Below, piece by piece: positions 24,614 through 40,809 of a stretch of 46,365 nt of DNA. The stretch is from the NCBI GenBank assembly GCA_019638835.1, contig JAHBTC010000009.1, forward strand, positions 1 through 46,365, written 5' to 3'. The notes below the pieces were generated by a model that saw nothing but the letters and a program-made list of their open reading frames with translations, had not been told where the DNA came from and ran no database searches. This DNA is from Fimbriimonadaceae bacterium (GTDB lineage: Bacteria; Armatimonadota; Fimbriimonadia; Fimbriimonadales; Fimbriimonadaceae). The position numbers were made by a program, and so were the translations under genes. How positions within the stretch are numbered: position 1 is the stretch's first letter; each line of letters starts with the position of its first letter.

Positions 24614-27600
24614 CTACGCAAAGTTCTGCCCGTCGTAGGAGCGATACGCGCGGATTTCATCTTCTTGCTTGACCCAAAGCGTAATCCGGCGCCGGCCATC
24701 ATTTTCAAACGATTCCGCCGTGGCAACGCCTTCCGTCTCTACCGTGCCAACCCCGACGATCGCCACGGGTCCAACGAGAACATTGTTTGCCGTGTCGCGA
24801 AGTTCGCCGTAAATCACCCCGGTAGGAGAGCCCACCACCCAATATAGCCAGGACAGTCCGTCTGGCGAGATCCATGCTGCTGGGAAGTGTGATTCAGTTT
24901 CCATGATTGTTGTGGAAGAGGTCCAAGTATTGCCCGCGTCCAAGGTGGACTTGAATAGTAGTGCGCCCTCATCGGTCCACCAAACGGTGAGGGGCCCGCT
25001 CGACGCGCTTCGATGAAACCGGATTGCCGCCGCGTCGGCTCCGTGGCCCAGCCCCGAATCGGTGAGAGAGTTGCCCAAATGATCGCTAACACGAACCCTC
25101 AGTTCATTCCCCCGCAAGTAAGCGATCGCGGATCTCTGGTCGGGCCCGACATCGGCAGCGAGGGCAGTTCCGATGTCAGGTTCGATCCTAGTGATGGCAT
25201 AGACCCCTCGCCATGGGCGAACAAGGGCAATGCGGCCGCTCGCATCGTGAACCTCAAACTCCGGTTCGGTGTGATCCAGAGCGTGCTGGTGTTGCCTCAA
25301 CCGCCATCCAGGAACGCCGGGGGCAGAGTCCGTCAACCAATCTTCCCCACCGGGAGCCAAGAGCCGCAACGACTCATTGGCGAGCCACCACCGGGGTTCG
25401 TCGGCGCCGACCCAAGTCTCCTGCGCCCACTCACCATCTGGCACTCCGTTTGCGCTGCGGGAGCGAACCGGAAAGTGCGCGAGGGGCGGCACTTCGGCGA
25501 CGGTGTTAACGATCGCCGTCCGAAGTTCTAAAGGGTTGGCTGCCATCCACGGAAAAGTGAACGAGTTCGGCTCGGCGAGAGCAAGCGTGTTGCCTTCGGT
25601 GGCCGTGAACCAATGGGTCAACTCGTCGGCTACTCCGTCGGTAGGTGCAGTCCCTTCCCAAACACAGCGTTTCGCAGCGAGATGGTCAATCACGGTGGAA
25701 ACAAATGGCTGACCAAGAATCGCAGGCGGGTTGATCCACCCGTCGTCGTACCAATCCCAGTGCCCCGCACGCCATACTGGACCAAGAGGCCACACGTGGG
25801 TGCCGCGCATCGGTTGCTCTCTCACAAATCTCGGAAGTTCTGGCGAGCGACGAAACACGGGCCACTCCAACTCTGCCGTTCCGCCAGGGGAGGTCAACGT
25901 GAGCCGGAGGCCAACCTTCGCGCCTTGTCGCCCCCCAAATAGCCCGTGGAGAGCAGATCGAATTGGTTCGCTCAACCAAGTGGAGGACGCACCATCGAGT
26001 TCGGTATCCGATCCCTGATCATCTACGGTGCCTCCGCCGTCATCTATCGCCCATCCGCCGACGTACACGGCGTCGGCGCGGCGCAAGAACGGCCGATCCA
26101 CTTCCGGAGGCTCGTTCTCCTCGTAGACAGTCCCTTCGTCTCGGCTGGTCACGAACCGAGTCGTTGCCGCCACGCCCGAAGTAACGGGCCACCGCCAAGT
26201 CACGGCGAGCCCGGGAGCCAGGTACGGCGGCTCTTCCAATGAAAGTAAATCGAACCAAACGGTTATCTCCTCAACTCCCGTGTCGGCGGTCATGGTCAGC
26301 GGATCGAGACCGGTCACTTCCCCTCCCTCGACGGACAATCGGGGCTCACTCGCGGGGTCCGTCGCGATCTCCTCGTCCACCGCAATCACGTCCACCTGAA
26401 ATCGGTGAACCCCCAGCCAACGGCGTCCGCCCACAAAGGTGTCGAGGAATGGCGTGTGGGCAGACTGCTCAAGGGCGCAGGCAAAGAGCGAACTCCGAGA
26501 TTTTGTTCGCTCAAGTGCAGGGAGTGACGAGTGTTCTAACCATTGGGTGCGGAACCGCGACCAGAACTCGTTTCGGTCCATCGGCTCGCCGTCTACCGGC
26601 CAATGGGCAAAGAAGGCAAACGTGCTCCAATGCGGGTGGCCCCACGTCGTCCAATAACGAACGAGGGGGTTGTCATGGTGCCACGCGCCGATCAAGTCAG
26701 GATTCTCGGAGATACTCTCTACGGACGACGGGAACACCACCGCTGTCGCCTCGCCAGGGCCTGGGATATACGCCGGATCGTCGCCGCACAGCGTCTCTGG
26801 GTTCGCTCCGGTAGTGATTGTGCGACTGGCCCGGCACGGCGCCCACAACGAAACCCCGAACGGTGCCTCCCAATCGTGAGGCCCGTTGCGGAGCACGTTT
26901 AGGCGGGCCCCCGTGCTCGGGAAGGCGACAACGGTCTCATGAGACTCGCCGCCCCCTGAGGCACCCAATACCAGAACCCCGTCGTCGCAGTCCCGTGCTC
27001 GCCAGAGGGTTGCCGCCGGGAAGCCGCCACGCTCCGCCAGCACCGCAAAACATTCGTTCAAGCGGCCGATACGGCGAGGCAAATCGGGGAACAACCACAC
27101 GTCGCCGCGCGCCGTTTCGCCCCGGACCGTCGCGGGCGCGGTTGCCCCCGGCGAAGGGCAGTTGCGGAAAGCCACAGACCGGGTGGTTTGGTGCAGGTGT
27201 TCGCCCCACGTGTACTCGCTGACGACAATGCCCGCCGGCGAGGCGAGCCCAAACGAGCATCCACTCCCGGCCGGAACATCGAACGGCGGAAGCGTCACCG
27301 GGAGCAATTGCCAATCATCCTCTGTGCCTACCCGAAACCGCCACCCGCCACTCACCACTTGGTTGAGTGTGAGGTCAAAGTCGAACGAACCGGGGCCGCT
27401 CTCACCAGAGATTGCGTTGCCGCCGGAGACGTGCGCCGGAATTCCCGCAACCGGGATGTAAGCCGGGCCACACCCCGAACTGGTAAGTGACGCGCCCCCC
27501 AGTGTGGTCGCCAGCACCCCGTCAACCCACAACTCGATGTCGGTGGCCGAGAACCGCAACCCTGAGCCCGTCCCCAGCGCGTACAGTTCCACGCCCCGGA

Positions 27601-27892
27601 ACCGAACGCTGAGTGAGAGCGAAGCGCGGAACCCCAATCCCGAATCCGTCCAGCCACCGGGCGGTGCGTTCGGGCCCTCATAACGCACAAGCCAATTGCC
27701 GCTCCCGCCGGTCTCCCCGGTGCTCACAGATAGCCGAATCCCGAGCGCGGTGGTGGAAGTTGTGTTTACGTACTGGGTTTCCAACTCGGCGTCATGGAAG
27801 CGCGAATGGAGCCCATAACCGCTGTGGGAGGCAGACGAAGTGACGCCCCACTCGAGACAGTCCCAAGCGGCGAGAAGACCGTTGATCGGCAC
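24614..27892 (-). CDS. Large tail-tip / receptor-binding candidate protein
   Basis: 1092 residues from GTG 27892, which follows the SGNH gene stop by seven bases with AAGGG as ribosome site. Rich in Trp, Gly, Ser and Thr and almost wholly beta-type, with repeated aromatic-Gly strands. Several segments suggest carbohydrate-binding or jelly-roll modules (GSGNWLVRYEGPNAPPGGW near the start). Near the end, PLTVWWTDEGALLFKSTLDAGNTWTSSTT and the following stretch look like sialidase/BNR-type propeller repeats. It has no recognisable catalytic motif. As the last gene of the tail module after the hub and a hydrolase, it is most simply the adhesin or tip fibre. This is assignment by position and composition, not by family. 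Confidence 0.6.
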   Translation of the reverse strand: MPINGLLAAWDCLEWGVTSSASHSGYGLHSRFHDAELETQYVNTTSTTALGIRLSVSTGETGGSGNWLVRYEGPNAPPGGWTDSGLGFRASLSLSVRFRGVELYALGTGSGLRFSATDIELWVDGVLATTLGGASLTSSGCGPAYIPVAGIPAHVSGGNAISGESGPGSFDFDLTLNQVVSGGWRFRVGTEDDWQLLPVTLPPFDVPAGSGCSFGLASPAGIVVSEYTWGEHLHQTTRSVAFRNCPSPGATAPATVRGETARGDVWLFPDLPRRIGRLNECFAVLAERGGFPAATLWRARDCDDGVLVLGASGGGESHETVVAFPSTGARLNVLRNGPHDWEAPFGVSLWAPCRASRTITTGANPETLCGDDPAYIPGPGEATAVVFPSSVESISENPDLIGAWHHDNPLVRYWTTWGHPHWSTFAFFAHWPVDGEPMDRNEFWSRFRTQWLEHSSLPALERTKSRSSLFACALEQSAHTPFLDTFVGGRRWLGVHRFQVDVIAVDEEIATDPASEPRLSVEGGEVTGLDPLTMTADTGVEEITVWFDLLSLEEPPYLAPGLAVTWRWPVTSGVAATTRFVTSRDEGTVYEENEPPEVDRPFLRRADAVYVGGWAIDDGGGTVDDQGSDTELDGASSTWLSEPIRSALHGLFGGRQGAKVGLRLTLTSPGGTAELEWPVFRRSPELPRFVREQPMRGTHVWPLGPVWRAGHWDWYDDGWINPPAILGQPFVSTVIDHLAAKRCVWEGTAPTDGVADELTHWFTATEGNTLALAEPNSFTFPWMAANPLELRTAIVNTVAEVPPLAHFPVRSRSANGVPDGEWAQETWVGADEPRWWLANESLRLLAPGGEDWLTDSAPGVPGWRLRQHQHALDHTEPEFEVHDASGRIALVRPWRGVYAITRIEPDIGTALAADVGPDQRSAIAYLRGNELRVRVSDHLGNSLTDSGLGHGADAAAIRFHRSASSGPLTVWWTDEGALLFKSTLDAGNTWTSSTTIMETESHFPAAWISPDGLSWLYWVVGSPTGVIYGELRDTANNVLVGPVAIVGVGTVETEGVATAESFENDGRRRITLWVKQEDEIRAYRSYDGQNFA

Positions 27893-27899
27893 TGAGCCC

Positions 27900-28841
27900 T
27901 TACAGCACTCCGAAGCGATGGCGGGCGACGACCAGGGGCGCGGAGAGGGAGGTTCCGGCATTCAGGATGCGGGCGACGGGCACGGGCCACGGAACCCCAA
28001 CGGGCCACGACGCCGGAATGGTCGCCGTAGAGCCCCCGTAATGAACGACGGCGACGGTGTCGGCGGCGGCCGTTTTGGTCACCTCGGCTCCCCCCGGATA
28101 GTCCACATCGGCGGGGACGGAGGCCAACGTTTCGCCCTGCACGGGCGGCGTCAAGGCGAGAGAACGCGGGCCGCCGACCAAGGCGGTTGCGATCCCCCGT
28201 GCGAGGTGCGCGTAGCCAATCGCGTTGAAATGGGTGTTGTCCCCGCTCAGATACCACTGCGGGGCCCACCGCGCGGTCATGAAGTCGTGGGGGCTGGCGT
28301 GGGCCACCCTCCGTCCGAGCCGTTGCTGGGTGCGACAGGCGTCCTTGTGGCCGTTGATCATTGCTTCGACGATCGTGTCCATGCCGATGACACCGCTACT
28401 ATTGATCGGTGTCCGGCTCAGACTGAGCACCCGCAGGTTGTCGGCGGCAAACATCTCCGCGAACAGCGCATCGTAGAGCGCCTTGGCGGCAGCGCGGTCG
28501 GGGGAGCCCGTGGTGTTGTTGCCCGAAAGGCAGATCAGAACGTCGGGCTGATAGGTTTCGATGCGGTTGCGCACAATCCCCGTGAGTTGGTCCACACGGT
28601 AACCCCCGTTGCCTTCGTGCCGCCAATCGCGGCCGAAGTTGCCCAGGTCTTCCTGTTGCGTGGTTAGCCCACCCACAAACTCCCACTGGGCGTAACCCCA
28701 GGTGTTCATGATCTTCTTAAACGGGCTGCGCCAGCCGCTGAGTGAGCCGGTGCCGGAGGTGAGCGAGTCGCCGAAGGCCATCACGCGGACCATGCGGCCG
28801 TCGGCGAAGAGGGACGAGAAATCGGTTTGGTATTCGTTCAT
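27900..28841 (-). CDS. SGNH/GDSL-type hydrolase of the tail module
   Basis: 313 residues. Block I MAFGDSLTSG has the nucleophile Ser26; block III is GNNTTG (107-109, oxyanion Asn); block V is DNTHFNAIGY with Asp201 and His204. The fold fits esterases that remove acyl groups from polysaccharides. The last ~80 residues (after ALTPP) form a small beta domain that may join the tail. In phage tails such enzymes deacetylate or trim the surface glycan of the target cell (family knowledge); here that role is inferred from its place between tail genes. There is no signal peptide. Confidence 0.82.
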   Translation of the reverse strand: MNEYQTDFSSLFADGRMVRVMAFGDSLTSGTGSLSGWRSPFKKIMNTWGYAQWEFVGGLTTQQEDLGNFGRDWRHEGNGGYRVDQLTGIVRNRIETYQPDVLICLSGNNTTGSPDRAAAKALYDALFAEMFAADNLRVLSLSRTPINSSGVIGMDTIVEAMINGHKDACRTQQRLGRRVAHASPHDFMTARWAPQWYLSGDNTHFNAIGYAHLARGIATALVGGPRSLALTPPVQGETLASVPADVDYPGGAEVTKTAAADTVAVVHYGGSTATIPASWPVGVPWPVPVARILNAGTSLSAPLVVARHRFGVL

Positions 28842-28853: not shown

Positions 28854-28991
28854 TTAGGAGAGGGGGTTGGTTTGTTTGCGGCGAGCGCGGGCAAGTTGGT
28901 CGCCACCGCGCCGGACTACGCGGCGGGATTGGATGCGCCACCGGTGGCGCAGAGCGATGTCGGAAAGGGTGACGCGGGGTCGGTAGGTCAT
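28854..28991 (-). CDS. Small basic phage protein, 45 aa
   Basis: ATG 28991 overlaps the stop of the hub gene by 4 bp (ATGA), the junction style used throughout this block. Product MTYRPRVTLSDIALRHRWR... is strongly Arg-rich (12 Arg in 45) and ends QTNPLS. It is too short for most gene callers. Function unknown; its charge suggests nucleic-acid binding or a role in tail assembly. Confidence 0.5.
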   Translation of the reverse strand: MTYRPRVTLSDIALRHRWRIQSRRVVRRGGDQLARARRKQTNPLS

Positions 28992-31087
28992 GAAGGCTCC
29001 ATCTCATCCCCGATCTGCTCGGCAACGTAGACGGCCTCCCGCCACTGCAGGGTCTCCTCCTCGCGCACGAATCGGCACCCAAAGGATCGGATGCGGTACA
29101 CGCCCTTCCCTTCGATCTGCACCGCGTCGCCCCGCCACAACAGCCGCCCATCCCCCGCAAGGAGCGCGTCCGTGTGGAACTCGGCCAGGCGGCGGGCGCG
29201 GCTTTTCTGCGCGAACAGCCCTGCGCACACCGCATCGGCGGTCGCTTGGTTCGTGATGGCGGGGTCCACAAGGCCGAACCGGCGCGTCGCGCCCAGCCAG
29301 TTTTCGGGCCGCTCCGCCGGAAGGGTCGCCGGGTTCGCCGAGTCGGCATCACGGAGTACGGCTTCCACGGGGCGCCGGATAGCGGCATCCCAACCGGTGA
29401 CGCGGACCTCGTTCGCCTCGGGTTCCAGCCACTCCTCGCGCCATTGACGGACCACACCATCTTCCGGGGCGGTTCGCGTCCGTTTGAGGGTGATCGCGGG
29501 CTCGGTAGGCAGGTCTTCGGGCTTCGTCGCGAAGAACTCAACGCCCTCTGCTCCGGGCCGGAACCCGTAGATCCAGTCCGGAGCGAAGGTGTCCATCAGC
29601 CTTTCCAGCCACTCGGCCGCCGAGTCGCCGACCTCCGCTGCCACCGCCCACGCTTCTGTGGCGGGCAGGGCAAAGTCCGACTCGCTGATGGTTTGGGCTT
29701 CGACACCCGATAGGGCCGCGATCTCCCCGATCACGTCGCTCAAGAGCCGCCCATCCCAAGGTGTGAGGTCACGGAAGCGCGTCTCAGCGAGCACCCGGAA
29801 CGGGTCGAACACCTCCCATTGGCCGAACCGCGCCTTCTCGGAGGCGGCATCTATGCCCGAGACCCCACCGACCACGCCTTCGAACACCGTAAGTTCGCCA
29901 AGAGTGGCCCGGAACGGACGGTTTGCGCTCGTCCAACTTCGCTCGTCGAAGTTGCCTTCGGGATCGTGGAGCGTAAAGTCGAACGCCACTCCCGCCGGGT
30001 CTTCCGGGACGCTCAGCACCGCTTCCGTCACCAAATCGGTCAGCGAATACTCATCGTCGGCGGTGTTTTCGAACTGCGGCGCGTACGTCACCTGCACACC
30101 GACAAGGAACGGGGTGTAGCCAGGGTCGGTGGTGGAGAAATCGGTCCGGACGCGGGTCTCGCTCAGTACTCCGTCGGGGACGAAAGGAGCCTCGCTCCAA
30201 TCCACCAGGCTGGTGGTGACCTCCTGCTCGCCAGTGCCAAATCCTGGCCAAGCGATAAGGTGGGTGGCTTCGGATTCCTCGTCGGTTTCGGGCGGTTCGG
30301 CCCAACTAGTGCGGACGGTGTGCGCGTACCCTTCACTTGGGAACCGGAGAGGCGCGATCTGCACCTGCGCGGCCCCCGATGGCACGTCGAACCAGAACTT
30401 TCCGGCAGGAATGATCGTGGGGTCGCTCTCGTCTAGCCCATCGAATACGTGACGGAAACCGTTGCCAAACTGAGACCAAACGAGCAGTTCCCGGCCGCGC
30501 ATCGGGAGCAGGATGAGTTGGTACACCTGGCCCGAACGGATGTCTCCGCTCCGGTTCCCGCTAATCCTCCCGTACCCCTGGGTGCTGCCATCTCGGAGAA
30601 TTTCAGCGGTGCCATCGCTCCAAAAGACGAGTGCGACTCCGTCTCCCGGGTCGGCGGTGTCGTTCCAGCCGCAACGGAGCAAGATACGCTGTTCGCCCGC
30701 GCCATAGCCGAACCACGCCACCCAAAAACCTCGGTTTCGGGTGTACGTGTCGGTGGTGATCCCCCCGGCAGGCAGGCCCGTCGGCGGCCCCGATGCCCGG
30801 GCGAGCCATGGACCCTTTCCGCTTTGGTCGCGCCTCTCCTCCCACTCGGTTCCCAGGTCGAAGTCGGCCAGGCCCAACTTAGCGTATTCGCCGGTGTCCT
30901 GTCGGTACCAGTCGTCGAAGAGGGGGCGCGGGCGGAGCATCAGCGTGTATGTGATCGGGTCAATCCACGTGTTGTGGAAGGTCGCGCCATCGAGTTCGCC
31001 CGCAAGTTCCATCCCGGCCGCCGCCAGAGTGAGGCGGTCGCGCCGGAGTCGCCGTTGGGCGTGATCGATCACGAGGCTCAACGCCAT
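28988..31087 (-). CDS. Tail hub / baseplate-like protein
   Basis: 699 residues. The first ~350 residues are beta-rich with a concanavalin-like look (GFWVAWFGYGAGEQRILLRCGWND...). The later part has features of gp27 / late-control-D type hubs: RATLGELTVFEGVVGGVSGID, LTPWDGRLLSDVIGEIAALSGVE, EWLERLMDTFAPDWIYGFRPGAEGVEF, then GDAVQIEGKGVYRIRS near the C-terminus. No separate distal-tail gene is present, so the N-terminal part may play that role. Its ATG overlaps the preceding frame by 10 bp and its stop overlaps the next small gene by 4 bp. Annotation is by position and weak family likeness. Confidence 0.65.
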   Translation of the reverse strand: MALSLVIDHAQRRLRRDRLTLAAAGMELAGELDGATFHNTWIDPITYTLMLRPRPLFDDWYRQDTGEYAKLGLADFDLGTEWEERRDQSGKGPWLARASGPPTGLPAGGITTDTYTRNRGFWVAWFGYGAGEQRILLRCGWNDTADPGDGVALVFWSDGTAEILRDGSTQGYGRISGNRSGDIRSGQVYQLILLPMRGRELLVWSQFGNGFRHVFDGLDESDPTIIPAGKFWFDVPSGAAQVQIAPLRFPSEGYAHTVRTSWAEPPETDEESEATHLIAWPGFGTGEQEVTTSLVDWSEAPFVPDGVLSETRVRTDFSTTDPGYTPFLVGVQVTYAPQFENTADDEYSLTDLVTEAVLSVPEDPAGVAFDFTLHDPEGNFDERSWTSANRPFRATLGELTVFEGVVGGVSGIDAASEKARFGQWEVFDPFRVLAETRFRDLTPWDGRLLSDVIGEIAALSGVEAQTISESDFALPATEAWAVAAEVGDSAAEWLERLMDTFAPDWIYGFRPGAEGVEFFATKPEDLPTEPAITLKRTRTAPEDGVVRQWREEWLEPEANEVRVTGWDAAIRRPVEAVLRDADSANPATLPAERPENWLGATRRFGLVDPAITNQATADAVCAGLFAQKSRARRLAEFHTDALLAGDGRLLWRGDAVQIEGKGVYRIRSFGCRFVREEETLQWREAVYVAEQIGDEMEPS

Positions 31088-31506
31088 CCGGATCGCTCCT
31101 GATTGGCATAGTCGGCCGCACGGCGAGCGGATTCTTGCTGCACGATTTCGCGGAGGAGTCGGGCGATGCGGTCGAATGGATCACCACTCATCGTCAAAGG
31201 CACATGCGGCCGAGGGAGGCTCATCGGCTCTGCGATTGGTTGGCGGACGGTTCGCTGACTGTAATCGCGTGGTTGGGGACGACTTACGAGCGGCAATTCA
31301 GGCACCCGTAACGCCACCAAACGCGGTCGGGGTGGGGTCTGGGGCGACGGCGAAGCGGAGGTTGGGGCCGGCAATTGTGCGGGGTAGGTTTGGGGAGGTT
31401 TTTCGTTTTGTGGTGCTCGATTTGGTATGGGAACAGGTGTCTGTACTGGTACCCATTCCTCGACATCTTTGTCTCGTGTCAGGATGAACGTGCCTCCCGT
31501 GGGCAC
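31078..31506 (-). CDS. Short Pro-rich protein at the tape-measure position
   Basis: About 142 residues from GTG 31506 (an ATG at 31629 in the same frame would give 183 but overlaps the frameshift extension of the chaperone). The first ~95 residues are Pro-rich (PVPIPNRAPQNEKPP..., SASPSPQTPPRPR). The last ~35 form an amphipathic helix (DPFDRIARLLREIVQQESARRAADYANQ). In siphophages this slot, after the tail chaperone and before the hub, holds the tape measure, normally 600-1500 residues. Either this is a drastically reduced tape measure or the particle has almost no tail tube. There is no Shine-Dalgarno, so start is uncertain. The stop overlaps the hub start by 10 bp. Confidence 0.5.
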   Translation of the reverse strand: MPTGGTFILTRDKDVEEWVPVQTPVPIPNRAPQNEKPPQTYPAQLPAPTSASPSPQTPPRPRLVALRVPELPLVSRPQPRDYSQRTVRQPIAEPMSLPRPHVPLTMSGDPFDRIARLLREIVQQESARRAADYANQERSGWR

Positions 31507-31570
31507 TCCACTGCGCCGGGGGGAGAGGAGCGGCGGCCGGGTTGCTCGCCTGACCAAGCCCGGAGTGGGG

Positions 31571-32094
31571 TTAGTCGTCCAAATCGGGGGCAAGTTCCTC
31601 CTCCCACTGCCGCAAAGCGGCAAAGTCATGGCTCATCCAGTCGGCGTACGGGACGCCCTCAAGCTCGGCAGGGTGACTACCCCACCCGTCGCGCGCCCCG
31701 CGCAACTGCCGCCGCAGTCGTGGCGAGGCGCTCACTCTTTTTTTGCCTGCTCCGCCAGTTCTTCTTCGGCCCGTTGCGCCGCATTGAGGCTGGCCGCGTT
31801 CAGGGCTTCCACCAGATAACCGAAGGCGTTTCCCGCCTCATTTGCGAACCGCACCGATTCTAGATGGTTGAGGCGCGGTTCAAGGCTGAGTTCGGCGACC
31901 ACATACGCCGCGCGGAGGGTCGTCGCGTCATCCCCGCTGCCGCAAAACTGAGCGAATTGGTGCGCGCCTTCGCGGAGTTGCTCAAGCACTGCCCATCGCT
32001 GTTCGTTGCGGAACCGCCAGGTCTCACCATCAGGCATGATGATCGAGAGTTCGGGTTCGGGGGCGGCGTATCGCGCGATCAACTGGTCAATCAC
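31571..32094 (-). CDS. Tail assembly chaperone, long (G-T) form by -1 frameshift
   Basis: At 31744-31738 the minus strand reads GCA AAA AAA GAG TGA. A -1 slip on A AAA AAA bypasses the TGA and continues for 55 further residues to TAA at 31571. The extension is coding-like: it starts RVSASPRLRRQL and includes GVPYADWMSHDFAALRQWEEEL before ending DLDD. A -1 slip here to make a longer chaperone is conserved in many long-tailed phages (established knowledge). The combined product would be about 174 residues. Only experiment can confirm the shift. Confidence 0.6.
31732..32094 (-). CDS. Tail assembly chaperone, short (G-type) form
   Basis: 120 residues from GTG 32094, which overlaps the tail-tube stop by 4 bp (GTGA); the longer frame from 32136 lies inside the tube gene. 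Mostly helical and acidic: MPDGETWRFRNEQRWAVLEQLREGA..., ending NAAQRAEEELAEQAKKE. Its place between tail tube and the tape-measure slot is that of lambda gpG and its relatives. The last codons contain a seven-A slippery run, which lets some ribosomes shift and make the longer form described separately. Confidence 0.7.
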   Translation of the reverse strand: MIDQLIARYAAPEPELSIIMPDGETWRFRNEQRWAVLEQLREGAHQFAQFCGSGDDATTLRAAYVVAELSLEPRLNHLESVRFANEAGNAFGYLVEALNAASLNAAQRAEEELAEQAKKE

Positions 32095-32894
32095 GCAGCG
32101 GTCTCCGTCACCGTCACCGCGCCCCGGCTTGTCCACGCGAAGTCGGTGGTGACGAGATCTCCGTCGGCTACGGAGAATTGCATCCCCGCAAACATAAAGT
32201 CGCCCGCATACTCTGCCCCGCCATCGGCCCGGCTCATGAGCGTGATTGCCACCGGATCATCGGCGGCGTTCAGCGACTTTTCTAGCAGGCTGGTGGTGCC
32301 ACTCGGGCTCGCGGGGTAATCGCCACTCTCCGGCCCTTGCCCGAGCAAGTCCACCCGGATCATTTGGGGTTCGCCGGGGTTGTGCCGGTGTTCCCACCGC
32401 GTAGCAACCATAGGCAGGGCGACCGTCACTCCGTTGATCGTCAGGCTCAGAGTGACCGCGCTGAGGTTTGGGGCGGCATGGGCGAGGTTCAACCCCAGTA
32501 CCCCATCGGTCGGGATGAGAAGGTCGAACCGGGCGCGGAAGCCGCGTTCGACCAGCACGGGCCATCGCCACAGGTCGCCGACTGCGCTGCCTTCGGCGTG
32601 GCGGAAATCGGCCCGGAACCAACCCCGTCGGATGTGCGCACGCCAGTCTTCACCACCGGCGGTCGCAGCAGAAACGTTTAGGTGGGTCACCCGCAGGGGT
32701 GCCGTGAGCATGCTCGTCTGGGTGGTTTCGATGATGGCGTGGCGTTTCGTTGGCTGGGCGCGACGGGCCGAGGTGGTGATGGGCCGCGCGTCGACCGTTT
32801 CGGTTTCGACCCGGTAGCGCACGGCCTTCACCGTGCCCAAAAGGTTCTCCCCGCCCGCGCTGAAGGCGGCGAGGTCAAATGTGGTGGCTCTCAT
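32091..32894 (-). CDS. Major tail tube protein candidate
   Basis: 267 residues, beta-rich and without signal peptide. It has a duplicated look: segments about 60-115 and 150-200 share polar strand patterns (...LRVTHLNVSAATAGGEDWRAHIRRGWFRADF..., and ...FAGMQFSVADGDLVTTDFAWTSRGAVTVTETAA at the end, typical of tail-tube C-termini). Position directly before the chaperone and after the tail terminator supports the call. Length is within the range of tube proteins carrying an extra domain. No Shine-Dalgarno sequence is visible. It is divergent from the small plus-strand membrane genes, 32 bp away. Confidence 0.6.
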   Translation of the reverse strand: MRATTFDLAAFSAGGENLLGTVKAVRYRVETETVDARPITTSARRAQPTKRHAIIETTQTSMLTAPLRVTHLNVSAATAGGEDWRAHIRRGWFRADFRHAEGSAVGDLWRWPVLVERGFRARFDLLIPTDGVLGLNLAHAAPNLSAVTLSLTINGVTVALPMVATRWEHRHNPGEPQMIRVDLLGQGPESGDYPASPSGTTSLLEKSLNAADDPVAITLMSRADGGAEYAGDFMFAGMQFSVADGDLVTTDFAWTSRGAVTVTETAA

Positions 32895-32926
32895 GTATTC
32901 AAGTTCGGTGCGGGTAAGTTAGGGTG

Positions 32927-33616: not shown

Positions 33617-34033
33617 TCACTCCCGACTCACCGCCACCCGGCACCGAAATCCCACCGCCACCCCAACGCGTCCGTCCCGCTCCTCACCCGGAGACGGAGA
33701 AACGGAAACCGAAAACACTTCCGGTAGGTAGCCACCAGAAACCGCAAGCAAGGGCAACCGCAACCCATCTACTTTATCCAACCGGAACGCATCCAAATCG
33801 GTTGCGGGCACCGGCCACTCGCCGGACACCGTGAACTCGGCAACCACCTCGTCCGCCAGCGGCGACAGGAAGGCCAGGCGGCAAACCGAAAGGACGACAC
33901 GCGCTTCTGGGGGGCCGTCGAACCCTCCGGGCGACTCGGGGGCGGCAACCCCGGCGACGATGCGGCACTCAGGCCACGCCGTCGCCACGGCCGCAACCAC
34001 TTCATCACGTACGGCAAGTAACAGATCCTTCAT
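33617..34033 (-). CDS. Tail terminator / tail completion candidate
   Basis: 138 residues from ATG 34033, which overlaps the previous stop by 4 bp (ATGA); the frame's upstream extension lies in the stopper gene. N-terminal helix MKDLLLAVRDEVVAAVATAWP, then mixed strands (ARVVLSVCRLAFLSPLADEVVAEFTVSGEWP, VGVAVGFRCRVAVSRE). The start resembles phage tail-terminator proteins that cap the tail tube and join it to the head. Position after the stopper supports it. Followed by 360 bp of non-coding sequence instead of the tail tube. Confidence 0.6.
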   Translation of the reverse strand: MKDLLLAVRDEVVAAVATAWPECRIVAGVAAPESPGGFDGPPEARVVLSVCRLAFLSPLADEVVAEFTVSGEWPVPATDLDAFRLDKVDGLRLPLLAVSGGYLPEVFSVSVSPSPGEERDGRVGVAVGFRCRVAVSRE

Positions 34034-34326
34034 CCGTCGGCACGCTCCAGGGGCCATTCCGCGTGGTCGAGGGGAGGCAGTGCGTTGAAGATGAGTGGCT
34101 CCCCGCTCACGACCCACGTCACACCGTCTATGAGGAGGCGGTCTCCGCGACGGATGTCGCCCCCGACTGCGCCTCGCCATTGCCCTGCGAGGATTCCATC
34201 CCGCGACTCCAGAGGCGTGAACTGCCCCAATGCGGAACCGACCGCCTCCCAAGAGACGCCGACTTCAACCCCCGAGACCACCAACGGAACCCGCCGAATC
34301 ACGGTTGCCGTATGCGGATTCAACAT
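34030..34326 (-). CDS. Head-tail stopper (head closure) protein
   Basis: 98 residues from ATG 34326 (TGATG overlap with the connector stop; a TTG one codon earlier also exists). Small beta-barrel pattern: TATVIRRVPLVVSGVEVGVSWEAV, then GDIRRGDRLLIDGVTWVVSGEPLIF. This GDRL...G..W.V arrangement is typical of head-closure proteins of HK97/SPP1 type. It plugs the portal after DNA packaging and provides the tail docking face. Position between connector and tail terminator agrees. Confidence 0.7.
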   Translation of the reverse strand: MLNPHTATVIRRVPLVVSGVEVGVSWEAVGSALGQFTPLESRDGILAGQWRGAVGGDIRRGDRLLIDGVTWVVSGEPLIFNALPPLDHAEWPLERADG

Positions 34327-34910
34327 CAAATTCGCACCCTCCGGTACCGCTGCTGAACCCGGTCAGCCCGCGCCCGCAGGAAGGCAACCGACGCTTCGGG
34401 GTCGGACGCACGCATCGCCAAAGCACCTTGCCGCAGATACGAATACGGCGTGCTTGGCGCGTGAATCCTTTCCAGAACCCGCGCGGCCGCCAGATCCATC
34501 ACGGCCGACCAAGCGTCGTCGGCGATCGTTTCGGCAAACCCCGGAACTCCGGTCACCACAACGGGCGTGTCTCCGCCAACCCGGAACGCGAACCGAAGCC
34601 ACGTCCCCGGTCGGCCGGGAACGGTGGGCTCAAGATACGCGTCGCTGCCGAGAGTGAGGGAGTTTGTCCCCCACTCCACCGCCGTCAAGGACACCCAGCC
34701 GCCGTCGAGGTCCAACCACGATGCATTGACGGGTTGATACGAGCGCGACGCCGCACCTGCCGCCAAAAAGGGCGCAAACCCGGATTCGGACTCCCATCCC
34801 GCAACCGCCGCCGAAATCTCATCCGCCAACACCACTCCCGGAGCCGAAGCCCCGAGCGTGGTGAGAAAGGCGGTGAGTTCGGCGGGGGTCGGCCATGCTG
34901 CCTTTCCCAT
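34326..34910 (-). CDS. Head-tail connector (gp6-like adaptor)
   Basis: 194 residues. N-terminal helix AAWPTPAELTAFLTTLG, central VNASWLDLDGGWVSLTAVEW beta region, and C-terminal helices (DDAWSAVMDLAAARVLERIHA, ASVAFLRARADRVQQRYRRVRI). This is the layout of HK97 gp6-type adaptors that ring the portal. It starts eight bases after the capsid stop. Confidence 0.7.
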   Translation of the reverse strand: MGKAAWPTPAELTAFLTTLGASAPGVVLADEISAAVAGWESESGFAPFLAAGAASRSYQPVNASWLDLDGGWVSLTAVEWGTNSLTLGSDAYLEPTVPGRPGTWLRFAFRVGGDTPVVVTGVPGFAETIADDAWSAVMDLAAARVLERIHAPSTPYSYLRQGALAMRASDPEASVAFLRARADRVQQRYRRVRI

Positions 34911-34917: not shown

Positions 34918-36426
34918 TTAGAGCCCGGTCACCGTGCAGGCGGCGGCGTCTCGATAGGAGGCCAGTCCAACTCGAACGTGGGCCCGGACGACAAGGGTGT
35001 TCTTCGCAAAGTAATCCTCGTGCGACTCGCTGACGGCGAACGTGACGCCTTTGCGAACGATGAGGGGGAAGAAACGCGAATCCATGACGAGTGCTGTGCC
35101 TTCGGAGAGGGCTTCGCTCTGGGTAATGGCGATCCCCATAAGGCGGCGGGTCATGTCGTCGCTCGGGTGGCCCATGATGTATTGGCCGTCGGTCGTCCGC
35201 GCCAAGACCAGTTTCAGATAGTCATTGGGGTGGAAGACGACGAGGTTCGGGGACGCGCCGCCGTTGCCAGAGCCGCTGCTGCGGACTTTGTTCATCGCCT
35301 TTGCGATGGCGTCAATGATCGGGTCGCTTCCCTTTGCCTGAGTTTGGATGCCGGTCAGATTCAGGATGCCGCGCAGGTTTGGAGCAGTGCCGTTCCCGCT
35401 GGTGACCTGGGTATCCACCGATTGCCGGAGCATAGAGGTCAGTCGGTCTTGGAGCAGTGCGCGCATTCCGGCTTCGTCTTCCATCTGTTCCTCCGTCACC
35501 GGTATGGTGGTGCCGATCCGGCGGATATCGGTGGTGGCTTCGGTGTACGCAAGGGCGGCTTCGTCTAGCTTTGCGCCTTCTGCCTTGGGATTTGCCGCGT
35601 TTGTAAACGTCGTTTCGCGCATAAACTTATACGCGTTTTGGGTGGTAGGGACAATCGGAAGGAAGTCCACCAATTGGGGCGGACGTTGGACAGATGGGAC
35701 AACGATTCCACTTCGATCCACCATGGGAGCGAATCCTGCCGTGGTCGCGAACAGCGTCTTGAGTTCGAGAGCGGAAGGCACATCCACTTCAAGTTCGGTC
35801 TCAGGCAGACCGCGCGACGAACGATTCTCCCATACGGAGTGATCGAGAATTGCGTCAGCTAATGACAATGAACGATGCGGCGCGGCCAAGGTCAGGCGGC
35901 CGGTCGCTTTGGTTTCGACTTGCGATTCAGATTGCATTTCGGGTTCGGTTTTGGGGGCCTCTTTCACGGAGGTGGCAACCGCCAAAGGATTGGCGGGCAT
36001 GGTGACGAGGGAGACTTCGCGGACTTCGAGCCCGGTCAAGCGTCGAACCGGGCGGCCATCGCGCATCACTCTCTCCGCAGACCGGGGGATGAAGCCGATG
36101 GACAGTCCAACAGCTTTGCCCCGCGCCAGACGTTCTTGAGCGATCGTACGGGCGGCTTGGGCTTCTGGAGTGCTGTGGAACTGCATCCGGACGCGTAGGC
36201 CGTGCGTGTCCTCGCGGGCACTCTCGATCGTAGCGACAGGTAATCGGGTGGCGTCGTGCCCCACGGCACCAAACCCCTCATCAACGAGCGCAGATAGGTT
36301 GAGATAAGCCCCCGGAGCGATCTCATCCCCCGCGCGATCCAGAATCCCTTTGACGGAAGCGTAACCTTCCAGCACGCCATTGTCCATCCAAGTTGCTTCT
36401 TTGACTTCGTAGTGGGCAGTTTCCAT
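34918..36426 (-). CDS. Fused HK97-type prohead protease and major capsid protein
   Basis: 502 residues. Residues 1-150 are a S78-type prohead protease: DNGVLEGYASVKGILDRAGDEIAPGAY, catalytic His57 in VGHD, Ser109 in GLSIGF and Glu137 in LEVREVSLVTMPANP. A short Glu/Lys linker (about 151-180) follows with no long scaffold helix. The rest is an HK97-fold capsid: ATTAGFAPMVDRSGIVVPSVQRPPQLVDFLPIV, the KFMRETTFTNAANPKAEGAKLDEA E-loop region, RRIGTTIPVTEEQMEDE, PNLVVFHPNDYLKLVLARTTDGQY and IVRKGVTFAVSESHEDYF. The protease would free the capsid by self-cleavage. ATG directly follows the portal stop (TAAATG). Confidence 0.9.
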   Translation of the reverse strand: METAHYEVKEATWMDNGVLEGYASVKGILDRAGDEIAPGAYLNLSALVDEGFGAVGHDATRLPVATIESAREDTHGLRVRMQFHSTPEAQAARTIAQERLARGKAVGLSIGFIPRSAERVMRDGRPVRRLTGLEVREVSLVTMPANPLAVATSVKEAPKTEPEMQSESQVETKATGRLTLAAPHRSLSLADAILDHSVWENRSSRGLPETELEVDVPSALELKTLFATTAGFAPMVDRSGIVVPSVQRPPQLVDFLPIVPTTQNAYKFMRETTFTNAANPKAEGAKLDEAALAYTEATTDIRRIGTTIPVTEEQMEDEAGMRALLQDRLTSMLRQSVDTQVTSGNGTAPNLRGILNLTGIQTQAKGSDPIIDAIAKAMNKVRSSGSGNGGASPNLVVFHPNDYLKLVLARTTDGQYIMGHPSDDMTRRLMGIAITQSEALSEGTALVMDSRFFPLIVRKGVTFAVSESHEDYFAKNTLVVRAHVRVGLASYRDAAACTVTGL

Positions 36427-37608
36427 TTACTTCGGATTGGCTCCCGGCGAATAGCCAAGGAGAGTCGCGGCCGCATCCCGGTCCAGGAGTCCGGCAGTAA
36501 AGTCCGCGCGTACACGCTCGTGGCGGGCATCCTGATCTTCCTGCAGGGCGCGGACCTCTTCGGTCTCGAACCGGAAGCGCCATCCCGGCATCGGCTCAAA
36601 CTCGGCGAGAAGTTGGTCGTTTAGTGCATCGGCAACCGCGTTCCACTTCGGTACCAAAAACTGCTCGATCGCGGCTTCTCTCGCCTCGCGGAAGTTGCTG
36701 AATGTGGAGCGTTCCCACCCTGCCCCAAGGCCAAGGACGATCGCAGGTACACCCAGTACGGCGGTGATGCGCTCCTCCGTGAGGCGCGGCATCTGGTGCA
36801 GAGCCATTTGTTCGGGAGAGAACCCGATCGGGGCGACATCTAAGGGCACGGACGGGAAGACCACGCCACCCGCGTTGTCTCCACTGGCCACTTGTTGCAA
36901 CAAGCGCTTCGTGTCATTCACGAACTGCGGGGTGAGCCCAATCGCTTCACCGGGGTCACGCACGGAGACCAGCAAACCGGGTGCGGGGGCTCGCATCAGA
37001 GACTGTTGATAGCGGGCGATCAAGTTGTCGGTGATGACTTCGCGCATGGCTGGCAGAAGGGCTGACTTGCCGCGCAAAGGCATATCCGGGTCGAGGCACT
37101 CCACGATGTGAATCACGTCCTCACTCGGAAGCCAGGTTTCCCGAACTCCGGCCCGCAAGCGATAGCCTGCCAGCCGGTTGGTTGTTCCGGGGATCGCCTC
37201 GGGCTCGACCGCCGACGACGGAAGCCAATCGAGGCCGATCACCCTTCCATCAGTACCGCGCACCTTATGGATATAAGCGTTGCCGTCCAAGATGAGTTGG
37301 GTGAGAACGGCTTGCCAAAGGGCGCGGCCCGAAATCTTGCTCGGCTCACCGAGAGACTCATGAGGGGCGTTGGCGACCCGTGCCGCCGGGTGGTCGGGCA
37401 CGGAGATCCAACCGAATTCAGACGCCTGCTCCACCAAGAGCGCCGGCTCAGTGAAGGTGCGGGCCGCCCATTGGACAACAGACATCACCACTGAGTTCTG
37501 TTCGGCTTCGCTCCTCCTCCAGGCATGGGTACCGAGTGAAAGCATGCCACTTGCCCAAACATTCTTGGGTTCGGACTTCCGCGACCAAGGCCAACGGAAT
37601 GAGATCAC
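36427..37608 (-). CDS. HK97-family phage portal protein
   Basis: 393 residues from GTG 37608, whose GTGA overlaps the terminase stop by 4 bp. Family features: VMSVVQWAARTFTEPALLV, LILDGNAYIHKVR, the GLDWLPSSAVEPE strand, VIHIVECLDPDMPLRGKSALLPAMREVI, DNLIARYQQSLMRAPAPGLLVS, and the crown region TEERITAVLGVPAIVLGLGAGWERSTFSNFREAREAAIEQFLVPKW. It forms the dodecameric DNA gate of the head. Full length for the family. Confidence 0.92.
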   Translation of the reverse strand: MISFRWPWSRKSEPKNVWASGMLSLGTHAWRRSEAEQNSVVMSVVQWAARTFTEPALLVEQASEFGWISVPDHPAARVANAPHESLGEPSKISGRALWQAVLTQLILDGNAYIHKVRGTDGRVIGLDWLPSSAVEPEAIPGTTNRLAGYRLRAGVRETWLPSEDVIHIVECLDPDMPLRGKSALLPAMREVITDNLIARYQQSLMRAPAPGLLVSVRDPGEAIGLTPQFVNDTKRLLQQVASGDNAGGVVFPSVPLDVAPIGFSPEQMALHQMPRLTEERITAVLGVPAIVLGLGAGWERSTFSNFREAREAAIEQFLVPKWNAVADALNDQLLAEFEPMPGWRFRFETEEVRALQEDQDARHERVRADFTAGLLDRDAAATLLGYSPGANPK

Positions 37609-38798
37609 GCTACCCACGCCGCCCCACGGTCTCCATAGACGGCGAGGGCCAACGCGCAAACGCAGTCGTCGTGTCCTCCGGGCGGCCCTTCTAAGCGGAG
37701 ATGGCCTCCGGGCCGGGTGCGATACGCAAATCCTTCAAGTTCTTCGGTCTGTTCGGTTCGATCCATCAAGTTGAGTTCGCCGCGCTCAAGGCGCGCGGCC
37801 AGGCCTTCGATTAGCCGGGTCTTACTGTTTGCCGTGAAGACAAATGGGCGGACAGCCGCACCACGTTGGCGAAGCATGTCCACTACCGGGTCCCCGACAC
37901 CCGTCGAATCCACCCACGCCCAAGCCTGATATTCGCGAAGCGTCCTGGCGACGCGGTCGGCGATTGCAGACCACCCGAGCCCACGAAATCGGTCCACCGC
38001 CACCTGCTTGCCGTCGGCGCGGATCACCGCGACGACGGTCCAGTCCCGGGCGCGACCCAAGTCCACTCCGGCCCGATACTCATGGGCCGGTTGATAGGTT
38101 TCGTTCGCAACTCGGCCTGCGTCCACGGCGGTGCGGACATTGGCGAACACCGCGCCTTCTTCCATGCCGAACTCGGCGAGATACTCCTGCCGGAAAACAC
38201 GTTCGGGCATCTCGCCTCGCGCGGCTTCCACTTCACCGGAAGGCAGGTAAGGGTTCTCATGGCTGGGAGCCGAGAAACGTGCCCATTCGGGATCGCTTTC
38301 GCCCCGTTGCCATAAACCGAAGAACGCTCCTCTACCTTTAGGAGTGCTGTAAAGCGTTGCGGTTCCGGCCTCGTCGGTCAGGGTCGGGCGAAGCACCTCA
38401 TACCAAGCAATCTCGAGTTCGCGAACGGCGGCGGCTTCGTCAATCACAATGTGCCGAAACTTGCGCCCGCGTCCTGCGTCCGGATTGTCCAGGCTGCCGA
38501 TCTCGATCGAACCGCCGTTGAAGAATTCCATCCGGCGATCGGTCTCGCTGACCCTGGTGCTGGCGGGGAGGAGGTGGCGGCGGAGGACGCGCCAGGGCTC
38601 GGCGGCCATCCGAAAAGTTGGCGCGAACCAACCTACCGTGCCGCCTTGTAGCGCCCAGCGAGCGCATTCCACTACGCCGACCGTAGTCTTGCCCCATCGC
38701 CGCCCACACGCGACCACTTTGAACCGAGCGCTACTTTGCAGGATTCGCCGTTGGCCGGTGTGACACCGAGGAAGAACGACGACGCGGTGATCGCTCAT
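37605..38798 (-). CDS. Terminase large subunit
   Basis: 397 residues from ATG 38798 (ATGA overlap with the small subunit). Packaging ATPase: Walker A CGRRWGKTT at 31-39 and Walker B HIVIDEAA at about 116-123. RNase-H-like nuclease: first Asp246 in GVDLGRARDW, Asp297 in WVDSTGVGD, and Asp377/378 in GGHDDCVCALAL. All expected active-site residues are present, so the motor should work. Whether it cuts at a specific site or by headful cannot be read from sequence. Confidence 0.93.
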   Translation of the reverse strand: MSDHRVVVLPRCHTGQRRILQSSARFKVVACGRRWGKTTVGVVECARWALQGGTVGWFAPTFRMAAEPWRVLRRHLLPASTRVSETDRRMEFFNGGSIEIGSLDNPDAGRGRKFRHIVIDEAAAVRELEIAWYEVLRPTLTDEAGTATLYSTPKGRGAFFGLWQRGESDPEWARFSAPSHENPYLPSGEVEAARGEMPERVFRQEYLAEFGMEEGAVFANVRTAVDAGRVANETYQPAHEYRAGVDLGRARDWTVVAVIRADGKQVAVDRFRGLGWSAIADRVARTLREYQAWAWVDSTGVGDPVVDMLRQRGAAVRPFVFTANSKTRLIEGLAARLERGELNLMDRTEQTEELEGFAYRTRPGGHLRLEGPPGGHDDCVCALALAVYGDRGAAWVA

Positions 38799-39034
38799 GC
38801 GCCGTCCCACGGTGGGTCGCGGAAGACCACCTCCACATGAATACGGGGCGGCTCTTGCGGTGCCACAGTTTCCATCTGTGCGAGAAGTTCTTTGAGTGCC
38901 GTGACGTTCCCTTTACGGGCCGAGTCAATCAGTGCCGCAACCACTTCATGCGCCCCCCGAGCTTCGTCGCGGGCCAAGGCCTCTTGGAGCAGTCGCGCGA
39001 GGTCGGTAGTGCCAGAAGTACGGCGACGGGGCAA
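38795..39034 (-). CDS. Terminase small subunit candidate
   Basis: 79 residues from TTG 39034 (the longer frame from 39082 overlaps the upstream membrane gene). Mostly helical: TDLARLLQEALARDEARGAHEVVAALIDSARKGNVTALKELLAQMETVAP. The second helix pair resembles small subunits that precede TerL in other phages. No clear DNA-binding helix-turn-helix is evident. The call rests on size, helix pattern and coupling (ATGA) to TerL. Confidence 0.6.
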   Translation of the reverse strand: MPRRRTSGTTDLARLLQEALARDEARGAHEVVAALIDSARKGNVTALKELLAQMETVAPQEPPRIHVEVVFRDPPWDGA

Positions 39035-39038
39035 CGGT

Positions 39039-39221
39039 CTAGAGGGTCGCTCCCGGTATGCCGAACGAAGCGGCGGCCCCACTCAGCGCTCCGAAGAGCC
39101 ATCTCTTCAGGGCGATTGCCCAATTGAAATTGCCCTCCGTGGCGGCCCAGGCTTGGACATCGGTGAGGGCGGCGGCAAGCAATCCGCTTGCGGCGCCGAC
39201 GAGAATGATTTTTCCATTCAT
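39039..39221 (-). CDS. Small membrane protein, holin-like (1)
   Basis: 60 residues: KIILVGAASGLLAAALTDVQAWA membrane helix, a short loop (TEGNFNWAIALKRW), then a second Gly/Ala-rich hydrophobic stretch (LFGALSGAAASFGIPG). Two membrane segments with both ends on one side fit a small class II holin. It lies between the lysin and terminase genes. Function is inferred from size, topology and position. Confidence 0.5.
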   Translation of the reverse strand: MNGKIILVGAASGLLAAALTDVQAWAATEGNFNWAIALKRWLFGALSGAAASFGIPGATL

Positions 39222-39243: not shown

Positions 39244-39462
39244 CTAGCGACGCGATCGGGTTCCGCGATGGTCGCTCATTTGGTCGGCGAGTCGTTCGAT
39301 TGCACGTTGAACGCCGTCGAGCGACTGCCGGAAATCAGTCATCAGGCTCACGATGGTTTCCCGGTCAGCCTGCCAAGCCTTCAGCACTTGCCAGATCAGG
39401 ACTCCCGAGACAAGCGCGAATGGCCCGTGCACAGCGAGGGCAGAAATCGTGGGTTCAGTCAT
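39244..39462 (-). CDS. Small membrane protein, BhlA/UviB holin-like (2)
   Basis: 72 residues. N-terminal membrane helix (ALAVHGPFALVSGVLIWQVLKAW) followed by a charged coiled-coil-like tail (ADRETIVSLMTDFRQSLDGVQRAIERLADQM). This layout, one helix then W-V-K and an acidic/basic helix, is that of BhlA/UviB-type holin-like proteins. ATG 39462 overlaps the CHAP lysin gene end by 8 bp, so lysin and holin-like gene are coupled. Confidence 0.6.
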   Translation of the reverse strand: MTEPTISALAVHGPFALVSGVLIWQVLKAWQADRETIVSLMTDFRQSLDGVQRAIERLADQMSDHRGTRSRR

Positions 39463-39955
39463 CCCGGGTAAGAAGAATTCCTTTCATGTTCTTGGTCCAG
39501 CGCCGGGTACGCCGGTAGACGCCGTCGCCATCGCGGCTTCCGGCAGCGTTCGTGTTTCCTTCAATGGTGCGGATCCAGACTCCAACAGGAGTCCTGATGA
39601 CTTGCACGATGAAGCCCATGTGTCCGGTGCCGTTATCGCGACACCAAGCGAAGGCGTCGGCGCGGCGAACTTCGCCCGGGTCGTTGGTAACACGAAATCC
39701 ACCAGATCGCACCCACGAGCAAACACTTGCCGGTCGTAGGGGTAGCCGGTTCTTTTCTCCGCCCGCCGCAAGCCAATGATGAGCGACAAACGCGGCGCAC
39801 CACGGATAACCCGGCCCGAGTCCGACCGTTTTGAGATACTGCGCGACTTCTTGACCGCGGTTCGCACCTCGTTCGCGGACTCGCCGTTGGTCGGCGTCAT
39901 GGGCCGCAAGGATAAGCGAGCGTTCGGCGACGGCTTTGCTGTTCTTGATTGCCAA
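39455..39955 (-). CDS. CHAP-domain endolysin (amidase/endopeptidase)
   Basis: 166 residues from TTG 39955, preceded by GGAG six bases upstream. Active site of CHAP family: Cys53 in YPWCAAFVAHHW, His112 in GTGHMGFIVQV and Asn134 in IEGNTN. The N-terminal RERGANRGQEVAQYLKTVGLGPG matches the usual stretch before the Cys. These enzymes cut peptidoglycan peptide or amide bonds. No signal peptide, so it needs a holin to reach the wall; two holin-like genes follow directly. No separate cell-wall-binding domain. Confidence 0.87.
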   Translation of the reverse strand: MAIKNSKAVAERSLILAAHDADQRRVRERGANRGQEVAQYLKTVGLGPGYPWCAAFVAHHWLAAGGEKNRLPLRPASVCSWVRSGGFRVTNDPGEVRRADAFAWCRDNGTGHMGFIVQVIRTPVGVWIRTIEGNTNAAGSRDGDGVYRRTRRWTKNMKGILLTRDD

Positions 39956-40013
39956 TCGGTTCTCCAAACGTACATCACTGGAGGTAGCCGCTTGGTGTGA
40001 CGCGTCCCACGCC

Positions 40014-40469
40014 CTATCCCGTTTCCCGCATTCGCCGCCGCGCTCGACTTCTCGCCTGTCTCACCCCCACCGGAGTCATGTGAAGAAGAGTTCCCACATC
40101 GCTATCCTCAAATCCGAGCAGCCCCAAGAGAACAATGGTCTTGCCCGGTTCGGCAAGATCCGCCGCCGCCCATGCAGCTTCAATCTCGGGCCAAGGATCA
40201 GTGGTCGGCTCGGAGATCAAACTTACGTCTGACGTTTCCACTTCCCATCGCCGACGGGTCTTCCGCAAGTAGTCGGTGACCACGTGGTGGGTGGCCTTCG
40301 CCGCATAAGGAATTGGGTCCACGGGCATCGGCACCTGTATCAACTTCAGAAGTGCGTCCTGCACCAAATCCTCGCGGTCTTCGCGGGTGGCTCTCGGGTA
40401 TGTGCGGAGACGGATTTCAACCACTTGACGGAGAATCGGGCGCACGCATTCAGGCCACGATCCGGCCAC
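40014..40469 (-). CDS. Sigma-70-like (ECF-type) factor of the phage-like block
   Basis: 151 residues from GTG 40469. N-terminal region 2-like helices: RLRTYPRATREDREDLVQDALLKLIQ (the DREDLVQD/L pattern), then PIPYAAKATHHVVTDYLRKTRRRWEVE (region 2.3/2.4, DYLRK). C-terminal region 4-like helix-turn-helix: TIVLLGLLGFEDSDVGTLLHMTPVGVRQARSRARRRMRE. It has no anti-sigma partner nearby. Near the promoter-proximal end of the block, it is well placed to switch on the whole set. It could also be a late-gene activator of related fold rather than a true sigma factor. Confidence 0.75.
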   Translation of the reverse strand: MAGSWPECVRPILRQVVEIRLRTYPRATREDREDLVQDALLKLIQVPMPVDPIPYAAKATHHVVTDYLRKTRRRWEVETSDVSLISEPTTDPWPEIEAAWAAADLAEPGKTIVLLGLLGFEDSDVGTLLHMTPVGVRQARSRARRRMRETG

Positions 40470-40809
40470 GGCGCACCTCCGCTTCGATTCGCTTCGTCTC
40501 CAGTATGGCCTGTTGAAGGTTCACGAGAATGGCGTCTCTCCGAACCTGCAAGGGGAGGGGAATTGGCAGGGCCAGGGCCATTTCACCAAGTCTCGCCACC
40601 GTCAATAGGGCCACGCGGACGCCTCGAGGGTCGTCGGGCAGAAACTGGTCTTCAACAAGACGAAAGTGGAGAACGGCGGGGTCTTCTCGGTTTGCGCGTG
40701 TGTCGTGCGGGCGGTGAGCGCGGACGGTCATACGTCCATCGGGGTCGGCATCTACTCTGCGCCAGTCATTCAAGACTTCCAGCAGAGCGCGCCAGGTTTC
40801 ATTGTTCAT
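40450..40809 (-). CDS. Hypothetical protein, first gene of the phage-like block
   Basis: 119 residues, cytosolic and helical: NETWRALLEVLNDWRRVDADPDGRMTVRAHRPHD, then LRLVED-like strand and QVRRDAILVNLQQAILETKRIEAEVRRGRIVA. Not recognised. It overlaps the sigma-like gene by 20 bp and lies just behind an AT-rich spacer, so it is probably the first gene of the transcript and may be a regulator. An upstream TATCCCA sits directly before ATG; ribosome site weak (GGAA). Confidence 0.55.
   Translation of the reverse strand: MNNETWRALLEVLNDWRRVDADPDGRMTVRAHRPHDTRANREDPAVLHFRLVEDQFLPDDPRGVRVALLTVARLGEMALALPIPLPLQVRRDAILVNLQQAILETKRIEAEVRRGRIVA

Follow-up and report, generated by a model that had tools for sequence, protein, structure and literature searches.

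A 16.2-kb cluster of phage head and tail genes of the HK97 type spans positions 24614 to 40809 of contig JAHBTC010000009.1 from a Fimbriimonadaceae bacterium (Armatimonadota; GCA_019638835.1). This 46-kb contig, analysed at its full length of 46,365 nucleotides and referred to as the window, is one of 207 contigs of a 2.74-Mb metagenome-assembled genome (MAG; G000), and all genes of the cluster lie on its minus strand. The cluster is probably a domesticated temperate siphophage that the host keeps as a short-tailed, DNA-packaging particle, most likely a gene transfer agent (GTA). Domestication is supported by the same genomic position in related species, divergence like that of the host, congruent trees, purifying selection and retention after splitting into two loci. 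A GTA-type function is indicated by the loss of the helix-turn-helix (HTH) from the small terminase (TerS) in the window's genus together with a shortened tape-measure slot. The genes appear suited to packaging DNA of the cell itself, and the system would probably be a new, independent case of a GTA. Nearly all GTAs whose genes are known are from Alphaproteobacteria and Brachyspira, and a paper of 2026 presents its own element as belonging to the very few from outside Alphaproteobacteria (PMC12946183). No GTA of Armatimonadota was found in the literature searched, the scope of which left aside subscription papers; in the one paper there that names both a GTA and Armatimonadota, the GTA belongs to an alphaproteobacterial MAG.

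Relatives were named through a hub-profile scan of GTDB, and the hub alignment also matched IMG/VR, while single-protein scans of both databases with the portal gave no matches. The window's genus (UphvI-Ar2 group) includes Armatimonadetes bacterium Uphvl-Ar2 (CP021424; G046) and UBA2785 (G047). A second genus with the cluster includes Uphvl-Ar1, ACE_ARM7, ACE_ARM8 and others, whose record titles give Fimbriimonadaceae. An earlier note on this DNA, made from the letters alone, had called the genome Armatimonadota-like, and these relatives, Uphvl-Ar2 and Fimbriimonadaceae MAGs, bear this out.

Packaging genes and the tape-measure slot

By family and fold matches, the cluster holds a full set of packaging and particle genes with an intact large terminase (TerL), whose ATPase and nuclease motif residues are invariant in eight genomes. 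The order in the direction of transcription is g1, sigma factor, lysis genes (g3–g5), TerS slot (g6), TerL, portal, fused protease and capsid, adaptor, closure, tail, hub, SGNH hydrolase and g19 (Table 1). The alignment of g6 to Sf6-type proteins is short, and g6 was identified as TerS because it lies directly 5' of TerL and shares the C-terminal tail. Its open frame cannot be extended upstream, and TerS lacks the HTH in both the window and G046, whereas TerS of the second genus is a full protein of the Sf6 type and includes the HTH (PF20901, 1e-27 to 1e-29). In the GTA of Rhodobacter capsulatus (RcGTA), loss of the N-terminal HTH of TerS has been proposed to abolish sequence specificity, as a GTA-type trait (PMC6854486). 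By analogy, packaging with the truncated TerS of the window's genus would presumably be non-specific.

The cluster has no ordinary tape measure gene, and the slot is taken by a proline-rich open reading frame (ORF) of 183 amino acids (aa). The corresponding slot holds 173 aa in G046, about 160–187 aa in G047 and 73–86 aa in the second genus, as compared with 593 aa in Synechococcus phage Sc-Yong805-2 and about 500–590 aa in other related phages and prophages; the tape measure of RcGTA has ~216 aa (PMC7296036). The earlier note had described a complete, integrase-less particle cluster. The gene families, the common orientation and the absence of an integrase, repressor, replication gene and tRNA agree with that description, with two corrections: an ordinary tape measure is lacking, and 722 bp between g12 and g13 are without a convincing gene.

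Sc-Yong805-2 (OR075997) is temperate, and it and the IMG/VR contigs L140–L143 have a homologous hub (31.5% identity in the phage, 31–36% in the contigs) and a matching order of head and tail genes, the contigs sharing the tail module with the window's cluster. Unlike this cluster, Sc-Yong805-2 is a full phage genome of 41 kb with an integrase, an S24 repressor and the long slot ORF. Larger prophage-like clusters with the same tail type also occur within the genomes compared (L052–L053 in G077, L037–L038 in G012 and L035–L036 in G001), with slot ORFs of 503–589 aa, and G077 has both kinds of cluster.

A plausible course of events can be proposed from the gene content. In some cells the operon would be turned on by the linked sigma factor, g2, perhaps together with g1, and a particle would be built from the capsid, protease, portal and tail proteins. 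TerL, with a TerS devoid of its DNA-recognition domain, would then pack non-specific host DNA into the heads, using a headful mechanism. The holin-like proteins and the CHAP endolysin would release the particles by lysis, and the hub, the SGNH hydrolase and g19 might dock on kin cells for delivery. Transfer of the packaged host DNA would be the outcome.

The strongest rival, though an unlikely one, is a host-kept killing particle that packages host DNA but is used to attack relatives and not to transfer DNA. PBSX of Bacillus subtilis is such a phage particle kept by its host; it can package host DNA, and it kills but delivers no DNA. The likeness of the present system to PBSX-type particles, compared by description only, is that of a host-kept phage particle. 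The same gene set, a headful-type TerL and inheritance linked to the host would be expected of a weapon too, and the cluster does have lysis genes as well as a long tail-tip protein. However, the loss of the TerS domain and the purifying selection on TerL and portal described below fit DNA packaging as the selected trait, the tail is reduced rather than elaborated, and no immunity gene was recognised.

Conserved position and inheritance with the host

Each of the three species sequenced from the window's genus has the cluster, adjoining the ABC transporter–P–HAD genes; the contig of G047 stops within the capsid gene, and its portal and TerL are unread. The left border, at HAD, is kept across the genus and the right one is not, the CAP gene, g1 and the sigma gene being inverted there in G046. 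The conserved position between HAD and CAP that the earlier note had proposed thus holds for the HAD side in all three species and fails on the CAP side. The flank of G046 continues with ClpX, trigger factor, an aminotransferase and TerC, and the flanking genes of the window and of G046 with a Pfam assignment are all metabolic or host genes. Family matching of the window genes tested revealed no integrase, repressor or replication gene, and none of these was seen in the flank of G046, which is a complete genome. No tRNA was found at the window locus, and a search for direct repeats at the borders gave weak matches only, none of them convincing. An active temperate phage would carry an integrase, attachment sites and lysogeny and replication genes, a set that the cluster does not show.

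Between G046 and G047, nucleotide identity is ~94% in the cluster and in the host backbone alike, and dS (synonymous divergence) is 0.09–0.26 in the cluster and 0.18–0.27 in three backbone genes. The P–HAD island (L057:300-3300 against L021) is only ~61–82% identical between these two genomes within flanks of ~94%. Horizontal exchange of the cluster, considered in view of its low dS next to the high dS of HAD and P, was rejected: the island is what diverges, and the cluster equals the backbone. A host tree built from chorismate synthase, Dus, the ABC ATPase and PEPCK and a tree of the cluster proteins agree in every split among the nine shared genomes, as the earlier note had anticipated for a domesticated element. 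In a single-gene tree the two genera are not sisters, with weak support.

In the second genus, the cluster occurs in six of eight species. The two species without it nest inside this genus, which makes loss the simplest explanation; absence is limited to these two. Of the signs that the earlier note would take as refuting domestication, neither an integrase, looked for in the flank of G046, nor sporadic presence among close relatives appeared. In five second-genus species the portal and Dus genes are close to each other, and a gene with sigma-70 region 2 adjoins the portal there as well. Parts of the cluster lie near each other but rearranged in G077 and G078. In G080 and G081, TerL, portal and lysis genes are separated from the capsid and tail or hub genes by ~1.2–1.6 Mb, and in G084 the halves are on two contigs. 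TerL, lysin and portal are spread over 25 kb in G083, where neither capsid nor hub was found.

It is improbable that the cluster belongs to an active mobile element, such as a temperate phage, a satellite or a helper-dependent prophage, with its replication and integration genes elsewhere. Related full temperate phages exist, as exemplified by Sc-Yong805-2, and the second-genus TerS retains its HTH. Yet the same position throughout the window's genus, host-like divergence and identical host and cluster trees argue against mobility, as do the split loci and the lack of an integrase and of border repeats.

Purifying selection and composition

The ratio of nonsynonymous to synonymous divergence (dN/dS) is 0.02–0.18 in the main genes (capsid, 0.02–0.05; TerL, 0.04–0.07; portal, 0.05–0.10; hub, 0.07–0.11; g19, 0.10–0.18), as compared with 0.05–0.08 in the host Dus gene. 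In some pairs, constraint is weaker on the head-closure and holin-like genes, whose ratio reaches about 0.5. Where the cluster is split (G080 and G081), both halves are under purifying selection. The values below 1 predicted by the earlier note are therefore found in the main genes, and its proposal of a domesticated particle kept by selection gains support from position, dN/dS and trees, to which the truncated TerS adds.

A decaying cryptic prophage without function is quite improbable in this light. Absence of the lysogeny and replication modules, the shrunken tape measure and the two second-genus species without the cluster would suit decay, but constraint of this strength in several pairs of species, the intact motifs, the agreement of trees across two genera and retention after the split into two loci do not. 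A repurposed particle with protein or other non-DNA cargo, which might be suggested by the SGNH enzyme in the cluster and by an in-frame fusion of portal and SGNH hydrolase in G083, where capsid and hub were not found, is very improbable given the invariant nuclease and ATPase residues and strong constraint of TerL. This fused protein of G083 (L027:14861-17383) has 841 aa, its second part being of the SGNH/GDSL type.

Several observations weigh against a domesticated GTA. The capsid and tube genes of G077 are frameshifted, although assembly error is suggested because the chorismate synthase gene of G077 is split too. The HTH is still present on the second-genus TerS, so that packaging there could be site-specific, and the cluster is missing from two of the eight species of that genus. 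The proline-rich 183-aa ORF would be an unusual tape measure. Measures of carbon content and cost gave no clear separation of groups, and the signature of known GTAs was not clearly seen. Finally, the reading is drawn from gene content and sequence and is based on MAGs.

Relation to known gene transfer agents

GTAs are a functional class, defined by particles that package mainly random host DNA and transfer it, and their capsids have room for less than the gene cluster. Integration, excision and replication functions do not accompany the cluster in the window or in the flank of G046, and it is vertically co-inherited under purifying selection, as would be expected of a GTA; a TerS without the N-terminal DNA-recognition domain is found in the window and G046 but not in the second genus. 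RcGTA (Rhodogtaviriformidae) is likewise a chromosomal head-tail cluster without replication and integration genes that is inherited vertically (PMC6854486; PMC7296036; PMC7360931), and the two have in common a TerS without HTH, a short tape measure and elevated G+C content. In G000, G046 and G047, the G+C content of the cluster is 4–6 points above that of its flanks, and in the second genus 1–4 points above; three prophage clusters of lineage II have no such excess. Elevated G+C has been reported for alphaproteobacterial GTAs (PMC7360931). Those GTAs also use amino acids that cost less than the ones in their viral homologues. RcGTA belongs to another phylum, however, and the resemblance is one of family and fold, not of homologous clusters. 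Unlike RcGTA, whose activator is GafA (PMC9638019), the window's cluster has a protease-capsid fusion, an SGNH gene and a linked sigma factor. VSH-1 of Brachyspira hyodysenteriae (Brachygtaviriformidae) is a 16.3-kb cluster, with TerL outside the cluster as delineated, that co-diversified with its host genus (PMC9662315). The likeness to VSH-1 is by description, and the Armatimonadota system is known from its genes. It is placed in none of Rhodogtaviriformidae, Bartogtaviriformidae and Brachygtaviriformidae. Fimbriimonadaceae are a little-studied group of bacteria, and an independent lineage with intermediate states (full or truncated TerS; slots of 73–86, 160–187 and about 500–590 aa; one or two loci) makes the order of the steps of phage domestication directly testable.

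Gene content of the locus

Table 1. Genes of the head-tail cluster in order of transcription, with the adjoining host genes
Feature	Position	Strand	Assignment	Basis or remark
g1	40450..40809	-	119-aa protein, linked to sigma gene	40% identity in G046; no family match
g2	40014..40469	-	Small sigma factor with sigma-70 region 2; probably regulates the cluster	31% to G046 gene
g3	39455..39967	-	CHAP endolysin	Family match; 58% in G046
g4	39244..39462	-	Small membrane protein, holin-like	51% in G046; no confident family
g5	39039..39221	-	Small membrane protein, holin-like	41% in G046
g6	38795..39082	-	Truncated small terminase	Central helix and C-terminal tail kept, N-terminal HTH gone
g7	37605..38810	-	Large terminase, T4 gp17/G20C type	phrog_2 7e-42; Terminase_6N
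g8	36427..37659	-	Portal protein	PF04860 6.5e-37; 52% in G046
g9	34918..36426	-	S78 prohead protease fused to HK97 major capsid protein	PF04586 and PF05065
g10	34326..34910	-	Head-tail adaptor	phrog_442
g11	34030..34329	-	Head closure Hc1	phrog_501
g12	33617..34039	-	Tail completion-type protein	Conserved in G046 and second genus
g13	32091..32894	-	Tail tube protein	By fold
g14	31732..32136	-	Small conserved tail gene, tail-assembly-chaperone position	Conservation and position
g15	31571..31735	-	54-aa ORF 3' of g14	50-aa ORF at equivalent place in Sc-Yong805-2
g16	31078..31629	-	183-aa proline-rich ORF in tape-measure slot, strongly reduced	Position, length
g17	28988..31087	-	Baseplate hub	gp27/VgrG-type hub fold, C-terminal ~370 aa
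g18	27900..28841	-	SGNH/GDSL hydrolase	PF13472 9.9e-11; 50% in G046
g19	24614..27961	-	1115-aa protein, putative tail fibre or receptor-binding protein	Homologues 3' of hub in related phages
Host flank	20784..24567		Chorismate synthase, ABC ATPase, P, HAD; conserved	Syntenic in G046; ABC-P-HAD also on G047 cluster contig

The start of g12 is uncertain, the ORF having been listed as 33617-34252 and an internal ATG assumed. When the g13 model was compared with known structures, tail tube, hub and other tail proteins made up most of the top matches, with lambda gpV and the tube of RcGTA among these, although individually they are weak and the best-scoring match is an unrelated fold. The C-terminal half of g17 matches the gp27/VgrG hub fold with E values down to 4e-14, and g19 is likely a tail fibre or receptor-binding protein. 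In G047 (L057:3384-7622), the SGNH hydrolase and the 1115-aa protein form a single open frame, as opposed to two genes in the window and G046. The gap between g12 and g13 (32895-33616) is missing from G046. A segment of ~58 bp from it recurs three times, ~100 bp apart, on another contig (C113); the gap as a whole was rejected as a repeated element, only this segment having been found again. Scans for sigma-70 promoters and terminators gave signals at or below chance level.

A second, dispersed packaging system in the family

TerL profiles matched 48 of 85 Fimbriimonadaceae genomes, mostly at loci where TerL adjoins a Mu-type portal (L066:11789-14205 in G061, L063:13237-15586 in G024 and L065:3741-6098 in G052). 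A protease-decoration-HK97 capsid module lies separately (L153:8041-11696 in G052 and L154:8262-11846 in G061); tail genes of this system were not identified. The dispersed genes sit among core host genes and are found in most other genera of the family; in G052, the genes in between include those for ketol-acid reductoisomerase, a signal peptidase and a class I tRNA synthetase. Both the dispersed TerL and the capsid are found in 39 genomes (Fisher p 1.5e-9 for their co-occurrence, a test inflated by shared ancestry), and this TerL is present in none of the nine genomes with the window's system, a comparison subject to the same inflation. Fimbriimonadaceae may have domesticated phage particles twice, a proposal that we regard with about equal credence and doubt: once as the family-wide dispersed system, and once as the window's cluster, in two genera without the dispersed one, with the TerS recognition domain lost in one genus and the tape-measure slot progressively shrunk. 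The tree of dispersed TerL has weak support, with several genera not monophyletic, and distance correlations were used instead. Identity of the dispersed capsid averages 66% over 23 genomes, as compared with 70% for chorismate synthase. Distances between the capsids are correlated with those between the hosts (Mantel r 0.48, p 0.0005) and with those between the TerL proteins (r 0.67).

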